Assembly (NCBI GenBank): GCA_902779165.1
Contig: CACZAN010000002.1
Span: 56,221 to 120,220, forward strand
Source: an uncultured Bacteroidales bacterium
Lineage (GTDB): Bacteria; Bacteroidota; Bacteroidia; Bacteroidales; Bacteroidaceae
Reading direction: 5' to 3'
Length of the DNA: 64,000 nucleotides
In this document: one piece after another, positions 4,084-11,913 of the stretch
Numbering within the stretch: the stretch's first letter is position 1
How the letters are laid out: every line of letters begins with the position of its first letter
Program-made: the position numbers and the translations under genes
The notes under the pieces: generated by a model
The model's database searches: none
What the model was told of the DNA's origin: nothing
The model's input: the letters and a program-made list of their open reading frames with translations, nothing else

Positions 4084-4096
4084 AAGGCCTGTATCA

Positions 4097-4630
4097 CACG
4101 CGCGCGTAATAAAAATTTGAAAAAATGAACTGAATCTACTGCAAAGCGCCATATCTTATTGTGTAGTAATAGGTTGCTTTGCAGTAGATTTTTTGAAAAA
4201 GGGGAATTTTGCAGTAGATTTTTCCATGATTGGGAATAATTGCTGTTCATCTTCCATCCATTTTGTGCTTGGGCTCGAGCCGTACTACTCCTCAGCAAGA
4301 GCCGTCAACAAAGAACCATCGATTAGGAGTTCCAGGAAATTCCAAGGCTGGAACTCGCGAGTTCCAGCAGTGGAATTCATGAGTTCCAGCAGTGGAACTC
4401 GACAGTTCCAGCGGTGGAACTCGACAGCACGCCCTATCTGCAGTCGGAGAATAATATGCGCTGAAGTGGTAGTCTTCCTACATCTTTTGCCACGATTCAG
4501 CAGAAAATCTACTGCAAAAGGCCTCTTTTTTAAAAAATCTACTGCAATATATCTCATTATAGCTCAATATATTGCAGAGCTGTGCAGTAGATTCAGTTCA
4601 TTTTTTTTATGTTTTTATCACGCGCGCGTG
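4097..4630. repeat. Near-palindromic non-coding element with about 46-bp terminal inverted repeats
   Basis: Both ends begin with CACGCGCGCGT. The left end 4097-4142 and the reverse complement of 4583-4630 match over about 46 bp (ATAAAAA, then A-rich, then TGAACTGAATCTACTGCA). The symmetry continues inward. Two copies of TTGCAGTAGATTTT at about 4175-4225 are mirrored by two copies of AATCTACTGCAA at about 4505-4547. The core contains three tandem 22-bp palindromic units. No convincing protein is encoded: the reading frames only traverse the repeats. It resembles a MITE or a large REP/BIME-like structured element. No clear target-site duplication is visible. It separates the fucosidase gene from a histidine-kinase remnant. 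Confidence 0.8.
4359..4424. repeat. Three tandem 22-bp units, each an inverted repeat (GAGTTCCA-n4-TGGAACTC)
   Basis: Units lie at 4359-4380, 4381-4402 and 4403-4424, with a more diverged unit at about 4326-4357. Each can fold as an 8-bp stem with a GCAG or GCGG loop. The perfect 14-bp palindrome GAACTCGCGAGTTC (4351-4364) joins the diverged unit to the first one. The series forms the centre of the larger palindromic element. Confidence 0.85.
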
Positions 4631-4665
4631 TTCGTGTAGATTATTAAACCATCGATTTGTGTTAA

Positions 4666-4815
4666 AGCATCCCCTTCTTCACCACCAAGCACGAGGGCAC
4701 TGGCATCGGCCTCGCCCTCTCCCGCCAGATTATGATGCGCCAAGGCGGCGACCTCGAACTCATGGAGCAACCAGAGACTGGCTACACGGTGACCTTCAAG
4801 CTGACACTTTCATGA
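4666..4815 (+). pseudogene. C-terminal remnant of a sensor histidine kinase (ATPase G2 box)
   Basis: An in-frame 49-codon tail reads IPFFTTKHEGTGIGLALSRQ and continues through LELMEQPETGY to a TGA stop. It has no start, no H box and no N box. A stop codon directly precedes it, so nothing upstream can be part of it. By hand, 33 of 43 residues match the end of the intact kinase at 29191-30039. The remnant lies directly downstream of the palindromic element, which may have been involved in the deletion. It is convergent with the ABC transporter operon. Confidence 0.85.
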
Positions 4816-10591: not shown

Positions 10592-10655
10592 GATGATTTA
10601 CGATTTGACGAATTACGAATTTGCGATTGCTTAGGCTAATGCCCGTTTGCGAGTG

Positions 10656-10663
10656 CAAAGGTA
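10656..10663 (-). promoter_or_regulatory. -7 promoter element (TACCTTTG) of the second permease gene
   Basis: CAAAGGTA on the plus strand is TACCTTTG on the minus strand, 65 bp before the ATG at 10591. The same element and its surroundings recur at 14419-14426. Confidence 0.6.
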
Positions 10664-10792
10664 CATACAAATTCCCTTTACCTGCAAGACCTCCGTCCCA
10701 CTTTCTGCCCCTTCTTCACAAAAAACGTCTAAAAATTGGACACTCTTTGCAGAACTCTTGGGCTTTAGCGCTGTTCTTATATAGAAAAGGTG

Positions 10793-10800
10793 TATCTTTG
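10793..10800 (+). promoter_or_regulatory. -7 promoter element (TATCTTTG) of the RAYT gene
   Basis: TATCTTTG matches TAnnTTTG and lies 28 bp before the GTG proposed as start of the transposase-like gene. This argues against a translation start further upstream. Confidence 0.55.
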
Positions 10801-10827
10801 TGCCATCGAAACGTAACTTCTATTATT

Positions 10828-11913
10828 GTGACAGAGGAAGAGTTCAGGAAACATAAAGCCTTTGCGGGAGAGAAGATACCTTCCATGCTTCGCCGACGGG
10901 TAGGGCATGACTACCATTCCCGGAGAATCTATCTTGTCACCCTGACCGTGGAGGCGAGACGTCCACTGCTGGGGCAGCTGGTGGGCAATGCCGAGGCACC
11001 AGACGATTCGGCAGAAGCACCCCGTGTTGAGCTGTCGGAGTTGGGAAAGCGTGTGGAAGCCTGCTGGAAATACATCTCACGCGAACACCCGGAAGTGGAG
11101 GTGCTGGCAACCATGATCATGCCCGATCACTTGCATGGCATCCTCTTCGTAGAACGCCAGATGGAACAGCATCTGGGTATGATCATCAAGGGCTTCAAGG
11201 TGGGTTGCAATAAGGCCTACCGTGCACTGCTACCCTCCCTGGCCTCCAGGTCTGCCTTGCTACAGCAGCAACAGTCTTCTTTGCTGCAACACTGTTGCAG
11301 CATAGGGGACCAGGGGGACAGGAAAGGGGACAACAAAAAGGAAGGCCTCCTTCCCTGCGGATATCTCTTTGCCCGCGGCTACAACGACCATATCCTTGAG
11401 GGAGCGGGGGAACTCGAACGCTGGTTTGCCTATCTGCGTGACAACCCTCGTCGTCTGGCTCTCAAGCGGGCTTATCCGGACTTCTTCCGTGTGCGCTTCG
11501 GCATTACCATCGGCTCCCAGACTTACGCCGCCATAGGCAACCGGTTTCTCCTCTCTTATCCTCAGAAGTTGCAGGTTCAGTGTTCCCGTCGACTGACTGA
11601 CGAGGAGATACAAGCCACCACTGCGACCTTCCTTCAACGGGCAAGGCAAGGGGCAGTCCTTGTCTCGCCTGCAATATCTAAAGGAGAGCAGGCTGTGATG
11701 CGCGCGGCCCTCGATGCGCGTCTGCCGCTTATCTTCCTCACTCCATGGGGCTTCAACTCCTTCTCCAAGCCCGGTCATCAGTATTTCGAGGCCTGCTCCG
11801 AGGGCCTTTTCCTCATCCTTGCACCTTGGCCTCACGAGAACCAGCGGATTCCCCTGACAAGGCAGATGTGCCTGCAGCTGAACACGATGACGGCGGTGAT
11901 TTGCGGGGTTTAG
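10828..11913 (+). CDS. REP-associated tyrosine transposase (RAYT, Y1/HUH) with C-terminal Rossmann-like domain
   Basis: A protein of about 361 residues from GTG 10828 (the ATG at 10885 is an alternative). The Y1-transposase part has TVEARRPLLGQL, the HUH motif HLH in MIMPDHLHGILF (H101, H103), and the candidate catalytic Tyr202 in FAYLRDNPRR, in the usual RAYT order. Between HUH and Tyr, at about residues 143-175, an insertion rich in Gln/Leu is encoded by a REP-like palindrome. After residue 225 an extra domain follows: GAVLVSPAISKGEQAVMRAA then LPLIFLTPWGFNSFSKPG and FLILAPWP. This pattern recalls the DprA/SLOG nucleotide-binding fold. RAYTs are single-copy domesticated relatives of IS200 transposases that act on REP palindromes. 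A second palindrome lies just after the stop. The gene sits between two duplicated permease genes. Confidence 0.8.
   Translation: MTEEEFRKHKAFAGEKIPSMLRRRVGHDYHSRRIYLVTLTVEARRPLLGQLVGNAEAPDDSAEAPRVELSELGKRVEACWKYISREHPEVEVLATMIMPDHLHGILFVERQMEQHLGMIIKGFKVGCNKAYRALLPSLASRSALLQQQQSSLLQHCCSIGDQGDRKGDNKKEGLLPCGYLFARGYNDHILEGAGELERWFAYLRDNPRRLALKRAYPDFFRVRFGITIGSQTYAAIGNRFLLSYPQKLQVQCSRRLTDEEIQATTATFLQRARQGAVLVSPAISKGEQAVMRAALDARLPLIFLTPWGFNSFSKPGHQYFEACSEGLFLILAPWPHENQRIPLTRQMCLQLNTMTAVICGV
11281..11304. repeat. REP-like palindrome inside the RAYT gene
   Basis: GCTGCAACA and TGTTGCAGC form a perfect 9-bp stem around one base, and the match with the palindrome at 11940-11964 extends to TTGCTGCAACA...TGTTGCAGCATA. 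It is translated in frame as part of a Gln/Leu/Cys insertion. Confidence 0.8.

Follow-up and report, generated by a model that had tools for sequence, protein, structure and literature searches.

The DNA analysed here is a stretch of 64,000 nucleotides, termed the window, from the genome of an uncultured Bacteroidales bacterium (G000; 75 contigs, 86% complete). Positions 4097 to 4630 contain a non-coding element of inverted repeats, with a CG run at either end, two arms of ~130 bp and a central array, and the symmetry of the ends extends to 4096 and 4631. The left end (4097-4131, plus strand) consists of the CG run CACGCGCGCGT followed by an A/T-rich spacer, and the right end (4596-4631, minus strand) of an A/T spacer and the CG run CACGCGCGCGTG. 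Complementarity was 87% between the terminal inverted repeats (4096-4125 and 4602-4631) and 77% over 112 nt between the arms (4111-4222 and 4504-4615). A TGCAGTAGATT-type site is present three times in each arm, with the outer site in one orientation and the two inner sites in the opposite one: subterminal site 1 (GAATCTACTGCAAA; 4132-4145, minus), site 2 (TTTGCAGTAGATT; 4178-4190, plus) and site 3 (TTTGCAGTAGATT; 4208-4220, plus), located 30 bp from site 2, are followed on the other side by mirrored site 3 (4505-4517, minus), mirrored site 2 (4535-4547, minus) and mirrored site 1 (4581-4594, plus). Between the arms are a left core flank (4221-4336; CCATTTTGTGCTTG...), an array (4337-4422) of four palindromic 20-mers with the core CA-NNNN-TG, and a right core flank (4423-4503). 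The cores of the array units, at 4343, 4365, 4387 and 4409, are spaced at 22 bp.

The motif TTGCAGTAGATT, allowing up to one mismatch, was present six times within the element and once in the rest of the window; the total of seven compares with 0.17 expected by chance in the whole window and was reached in none of 100 shuffles. The CGCGCGCG word is not unusual by number (three in the window versus 2.28 expected), but its symmetric placement is. An open reading frame spanning the element (4193-4639) did not match any Pfam or NCBIfam family at E ≤ 0.001, and the predicted RNA fold of −240 kcal/mol was far more stable than that of 100 shuffled sequences (−134.7 ± 6.9 kcal/mol; z of −15.3). The original prediction of a near-palindromic element with nested inverted repeats and no real protein product was, therefore, borne out, and the element has the size and ends of a MITE (50 to 1,000 bp, terminal inverted repeats and no coding capacity). 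The same prediction allowed for a functional structured RNA, in favour of which the very stable fold can be cited. Inverted-repeat DNA gives a stable fold in any case, the symmetry reads alike on both strands, no Rfam family matched the window at the gathering score and the number of array units differs between the window copy and its counterpart in a related genome (G078), all of which make this explanation highly improbable.

Outside the element, positions 4669 to 4812 (plus strand) encode the end of a histidine-kinase HATPase_c domain, confirming that a truncated kinase gene lies beside the element. The stump sequence was detected in 8 of 11 loci of relatives, in all eight of which the frame stays open for at least 141 residues further upstream, and this longer kinase frame adjoins the same ABC gene. 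As relatives keep the longer frame, a rearrangement ended at about position 4668. The suggestion that the element is active in genome rearrangement is thus upheld as to its location at the junction of the kinase stump, while nothing indicates that the element caused the break.

A RAYT-like reading frame is present at 10621-11913, about 6 kb away, although its score against NF047646 was 33 bits versus a cut-off of 80. The array could in principle be a REP cluster mobilised by this RAYT, as had been proposed, and the dispersal of solo palindrome arrays in this genome (see below) would be in keeping with such an origin. The RAYT has its own palindrome (GCTGCAACA/TGTTGCAGC, 11274-11310), which differs in sequence from the element, as had been noted. 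The sole inverted repeat reported around the RAYT (at least 16 nt, arms within 400 bp) was TGCTGCAACA/TGTTGCAGCA, which is related neither to the arms nor to the array, and the gene is not flanked by GAGTTCCAnnnnTGGAACTC units. A RAYT would also leave the 130-bp arms unexplained, and array words differ between the VapE loci described below. Mobilisation by the RAYT accordingly retains only a very slight probability.

A BLAST search of G000 with the element returned 101 matching stretches, and scores were computed for 40 of the 53 candidates from the first look. At least 15 arm-bearing loci were found, of which 10 were two-armed (C2, which is the window copy, C27, C20, C12, C45a, C6, C19, C5b, C14 and C25A) and five one-armed (C44, C8 and C25B, plus C5a and C45b, both near contig ends). 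Most copies have similar CG-run ends, these being degenerate in C19, C44 and C5b. The array was present in all 10 two-armed copies, and arrays of one to seven units were detected without arms at 15 or more further places (L006, L010, L015, L017, L023, L028, L031 to L037, L039 and L049). The left core flank is common to several copies, including the arm-less C9 (L006), which has both core flanks; C15 has part of them. Other palindromic words, such as ACGTCTATACGT, are repeated beside known arrays (L169, L145, L039 and L036) and are possibly further array families. A AAGTAGGTG...CACCTACTT inverted repeat occurs in or beside arm-bearing loci (L046 at 1800-1875, L075, L045 and L047) and is a possible further small repeat family.

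Among other genomes of the genus, the whole-element query matched 3 of 61, with the matches in G038 and G040 confined to the array. An 18-base arm pattern with one mismatch matched 8 of 139 genus genomes, compared to a single match in total for the reversed pattern; the matches in G014, G001 and G112 look like chance occurrences in coding DNA. A scan of 84,980 species genomes with this pattern detected 11 stretches, all in the assemblies of G078, G108, G121 and G093, and no match was found in viral contigs. G078 has the same insertion as the window, downstream of the same fucosidase gene but with two array units fewer; the two copies, compared for a possible inversion switch, have identical orientations. 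G108 has another copy of the element. G121 and G093 contain a related family, several copies of which have arrays of another sequence, and which appears to be one-ended. The loci of this family (L101, L103 to L109, L111, L074, L078, L080, L083 and L087) exhibit a CG-rich end, a GAATCTACTGCA-TGCAGTAGATT hairpin and usually CAATCAGCTGATT, and several copies have GTAACACAGGTGATAC arrays. The element is thus neither single-copy nor without relatives; the original prediction had taken a single copy with no relatives as a sign of chance or decayed sequence.

One G000 copy (C25), of ~3.25 kb, contains genes. The same arms bracket, in order, a DUF6078 gene (145 aa), the array and a gene for a 703-aa protein with BT4734-like N-terminal, VapE and DUF3874 domains (the last below the cut-off). 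These were the only genes recognised between the arms. A transposase-bearing (DDE/IS) parent was considered and set aside, as no transposase was recognised there; similarly, none of the loci read had a transposase bracketed by arms. Remnants of the two genes were detected in other copies. In C25B, 84 C-terminal VapE residues (92% identical) precede another right arm 3 kb away; in C45b, the last 28 residues of DUF6078 (93% identical) lie between the left arm and the array; and in a contig of another genome (G138:C13, L159) a VapE C terminus (43% identical, E of 6e-7) lies between two arms. At L046 5280-7321, RhuM-family and KilA-N genes separate the C25 VapE element from the truncated VapE copy and the right arm that follows it. 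G000 has one other full-length VapE-like gene (L065; 32 to 33% identical), which showed no inverted repeat of this kind, which runs counter to the association of VapE with these ends. MITEs are expected to be products of internal deletion, and, given the gene remnants in other copies, the most fitting reading of the window element is as a MITE derived from a VapE element. From these sequences, together with the 15 or more arm-bearing loci of G000 and the genes held between the same arms in C25, the suggestion of a MITE is supported, and descent of the window element from a VapE element, as a MITE-like form without genes, is very probable.

A Bacteroidota MITE of similar plan is BrickBuilt of Porphyromonas gingivalis, which is described as a 23-nt tandem-repeat array between inverted-repeat ends with 19 intergenic copies in one genome (PMC4596501). 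BrickBuilt has 12-nt IS5-like ends (GAGACCTTTGCA) and some target duplications, and no gene-bearing parent is reported (PMC4596501). In contrast, the window element has arms of ~130 bp, 22-bp palindromic units and a VapE-bearing parent. Membership of BrickBuilt was rejected, as the ends here are CACGCGCGCGT rather than GAGACC... and the units are 22 bp rather than 23 nt.

VapE homologues at E ≤ 1e-100 were found in 33 of the 139 genus genomes. DUF6078 was located upstream in 21 of 29 loci (L112 to L140), and an inverted repeat spanned the VapE gene in 20 of these 29, being weak in one of the 20, several of the others being cut by contig ends. Flanks of 450 bp were then tested for 19 loci (L046 and 18 of L112 to L140), with 342 cross-pairs of flanks as a control. 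Inverted repeats of 41 to 104 bits were detected in 16 of the 19 loci, compared to a cross-pair median of 20.2 and 95th percentile of 46.4. However, three of the 16 positives (41 to 44 bits) fell under this percentile, and L119, L121 and L123 had no inverted repeat. The upper tail of the control consisted mostly of pairs among L120, L124, L125 and L127, which have end words in common, but also of pairs with different words (L112-L114, L112-L132 and L046-L132). The end words vary among VapE loci (CCTACACC, CTGCCACC, ATATCAT, CTGTCAC, ATGTCAC and CATCC..., among others), whereas the layout of the ends, judged by eye, is alike: one or more inward sites, a gap of ~35 to 40 bp and then outward sites.

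Should VapE elements give rise to MITEs, a second type of arm would be expected to exceed VapE genes in number in genomes with that type, and this was observed. A second arm word, AACTGCAAAACTGCCACC, was present in 8 of the 139 genus genomes, 6 of which have VapE at E ≤ 1e-100, with 12 matches in G138, 8 in G107 and 4 in G133. Two-armed copies of ~0.5 kb were found in these three genomes, all with a GTCCCAnnnnTGGGAC-type array, and one such copy in G138 retains the end of VapE. The plan of arms, array and VapE was shown by these sequence comparisons to recur with changing sequences.

Arrays were also examined in the 19 loci used for the repeat test. CANNNNTG cores in a 22-bp register were detected upstream of VapE in 15 of them, with core-to-core distances of 22 (36 times), 44 (21 times) and any other value no more than twice; in a control made up of 114 stretches of VapE coding sequence, the distance of 22 was outside the eight commonest. 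For the six outer positions of the stems, 70 of 90 cells paired in units picked without a pairing rule. When the 3′ halves were redealt among loci, the mean was 48.4 and the maximum 66, and none of 10,000 redeals reached 70, a figure that is not a probability since the loci are related. The two halves of the stem clearly change together. Among six more distant DUF6078-VapE loci (L133 to L136, L139 and L140), however, the strict register was found in L133 only, and most loci scanned outside the genus, in Bacteroides and elsewhere, were without the strict array core; among these, inspection by eye revealed one array with a comparable period, in L219.

Beyond the genus, inverted repeats of at least 44 bits were detected in 15 of 20 Bacteroides VapE loci, a set composed of the top matches to a single query, with several close relatives among them. 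Loci with repeats include Bacteroides finegoldii NZ_OY725909.1 and the fecal contigs MT836291 and MT838091. DUF6078 was outside the inverted repeat in 7 of the 20 (L231 to L236 and L243), contrary to expectation for a VapE element; the actual end of the element may be more distant in these loci, or DUF6078 may be no more than a neighbour. Also contrary to this expectation, no inverted repeat was found near VapE in L216, L217, L218, L220 and L282 to L284, some of which are cut by contig ends, and the DUF6078-VapE gene pair of Parabacteroides distasonis NZ_OY725757.1 had no clear repeat. An HU-HIG gene divergent from VapE takes the usual place of DUF6078 in L229, where it is within the repeat, and in L216, which has no clear repeat, and L228 has a candidate look-alike reading frame. 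DUF6078 was detected in 9 of 294 genomes of the order and 1 of 14 named controls. None of the 13 order-level DUF6078 loci outside G000 had a VapE match in the 1.5-kb flanks, indicating that DUF6078 also occurs apart from VapE. In viral collections, there were no confirmed relatives of VapE of the G000 type and none of the VapE of MT836291, while the Bacteroides type gave three and a mixed alignment eight, overlapping those three.

The constant gene of the family, as judged from domain matches, is that for the VapE protein, with a BT4734-like primase-type domain, a VapE helicase-type ATPase and DUF3874, often accompanied by a small accessory gene, either DUF6078 or, in some Bacteroides, an HU-type gene. 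VapE helicase-type proteins are found on integrase-bearing islands or phages, whereas here VapE is present in arm-bracketed units of ~3 kb. To our knowledge, the BT4734/VapE genes of gut and rumen Bacteroidales are annotated without a known role. PF08800 (BT4734-like) was detected in all 22 VapE proteins analysed, and the VapE region matched the helicase-type structure 7pds (E of 5.5e-8) and phage helicase/primase families (PHROGs 1313 and 15962). In a study of AEP primases, motif I is given as hhhDhD/E, BT4734-like proteins form an AEP family not attached to any clade, and VirE (PF05272) ATPases are predicted helicases of mobile elements (PMC5862659). With the motif placed by us, the first acid was kept in 21 of the 22 proteins but the second was missing in all 22, and hence no priming activity is claimed. 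The term "inverted repeat" was not found on searching that study, whereas the VapE elements described here have such ends. No cutting-and-joining domain was recognised in VapE or DUF6078, and for DUF6078 no relative in the PDB and no literature were found. An AlphaFold model of a VapE relative, built from three sequences, had a mean pLDDT of 37 and was not used.

Sites of insertion were searched for signs of movement. By eye, the ends of two-armed copies showed no target duplication of constant length; an 11-bp direct repeat is present at C20, displaced on one side by about 11 bp. Flanks of C27, C12, C45a (left flank shortened) and C6 and part of those of C19 had matches in 76 of 139 genomes, but none of the best two candidates per genome crossed the joint, and searches for an empty site with the flanks of the window element, the B. 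finegoldii locus and L230 gave no match joining both sides. As neither a target duplication nor a precise empty site was found, we infer movement rather than observe it. A HAD phosphatase gene adjoins the VapE element in two species, and the element was absent from this position in 10 other loci read. Flanks are common to three pairs of copies (window and C44, C14 and C8, C5a and G108), indicating that these are duplicates or old insertions rather than independent insertions, and the presence of the window copy in G078 indicates that it is not recent.

The shared flanks, the site in common with G078, the missing target duplications and the arrays that stand alone in G000 would all be expected of a fixed regulatory or structural repeat (an operator array, terminator or transcript stabiliser) spread by recombination and duplication rather than transposition. 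We consider this explanation improbable because genes and gene remnants are present within the arms, DUF6078 is sporadic in the order and copies of ~0.5 kb exist in a second arm family. The explanation that we favour, and hold to be probable, derives the element, as a form without genes, from a mobile-looking Bacteroidales VapE family, in which VapE would act on the ends and move both full and gene-less copies.

Several steps can be proposed for such a process. VapE would assemble at the two ends of the element, on their inverted and direct sites, and unwind or copy the element, so moving full-length and gene-less copies alike, and the 22-bp array, with about two helix turns per unit, could be an origin or operator that binds a VapE oligomer. 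Tn7-like transposon ends contain several oriented protein-binding sites each; the resemblance is one of layout only, as the C25 copy does not have Tn7-type genes. That VapE itself is the mover, copying from its end sites, is a tentative reading of these sequences to which we would give slightly less than an even chance.

Alternatively, the arms could be the ends on which a transposase or recombinase acts that is unlinked or belongs to the host, with VapE and DUF6078 being frequent cargo or regulators and all copies having moved in trans. The apparent lack of a cutting-and-joining domain in either protein is consistent with this alternative, as are the IS5-family-like ends of the BrickBuilt MITE of P. 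gingivalis (PMC4596501). Furthermore, arms are present in G078, G108, G121 and G093, which are outside the set of genomes with VapE at E ≤ 1e-100, an observation that also counts against the VapE-element reading. However, VapE recurs inside inverted repeats of many unrelated sequences, arms with the second word occur mainly where VapE is present and the loci read did not include a transposase between arms. Movement by an unlinked enzyme is, therefore, unlikely, and we judge VapE-driven copying to be the most likely mechanism, ahead of a host or unlinked recombinase.

Gene-less MITEs are a known kind of element, while the VapE parent type was not met in the literature searched: no VapE elements with inverted-repeat ends were described in the titles and starts of abstracts covered, most subscription journals and preprints being outside reach. 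A bolder proposal, to which we attach somewhat less weight than to VapE as the mover, is that VapE elements constitute a DNA-transposon class of their own, in which a primase-helicase-type protein without a transposase would copy its own element, recognise its own ends and 22-bp array and amplify gene-less MITEs. If so, many BT4734/VapE genes of gut Bacteroidales would belong to such transposons. VapE elements, if self-moving, would be a type of DNA transposon that relies on a replication protein in place of a transposase and whose end and internal sites co-evolve. This would account for a class of long palindromes and 22-bp palindromic arrays of gut and rumen Bacteroidales genomes, and such elements might serve as a delivery tool for Bacteroides. 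The element described here may point to an undescribed mode of DNA spread among gut and rumen bacteria.
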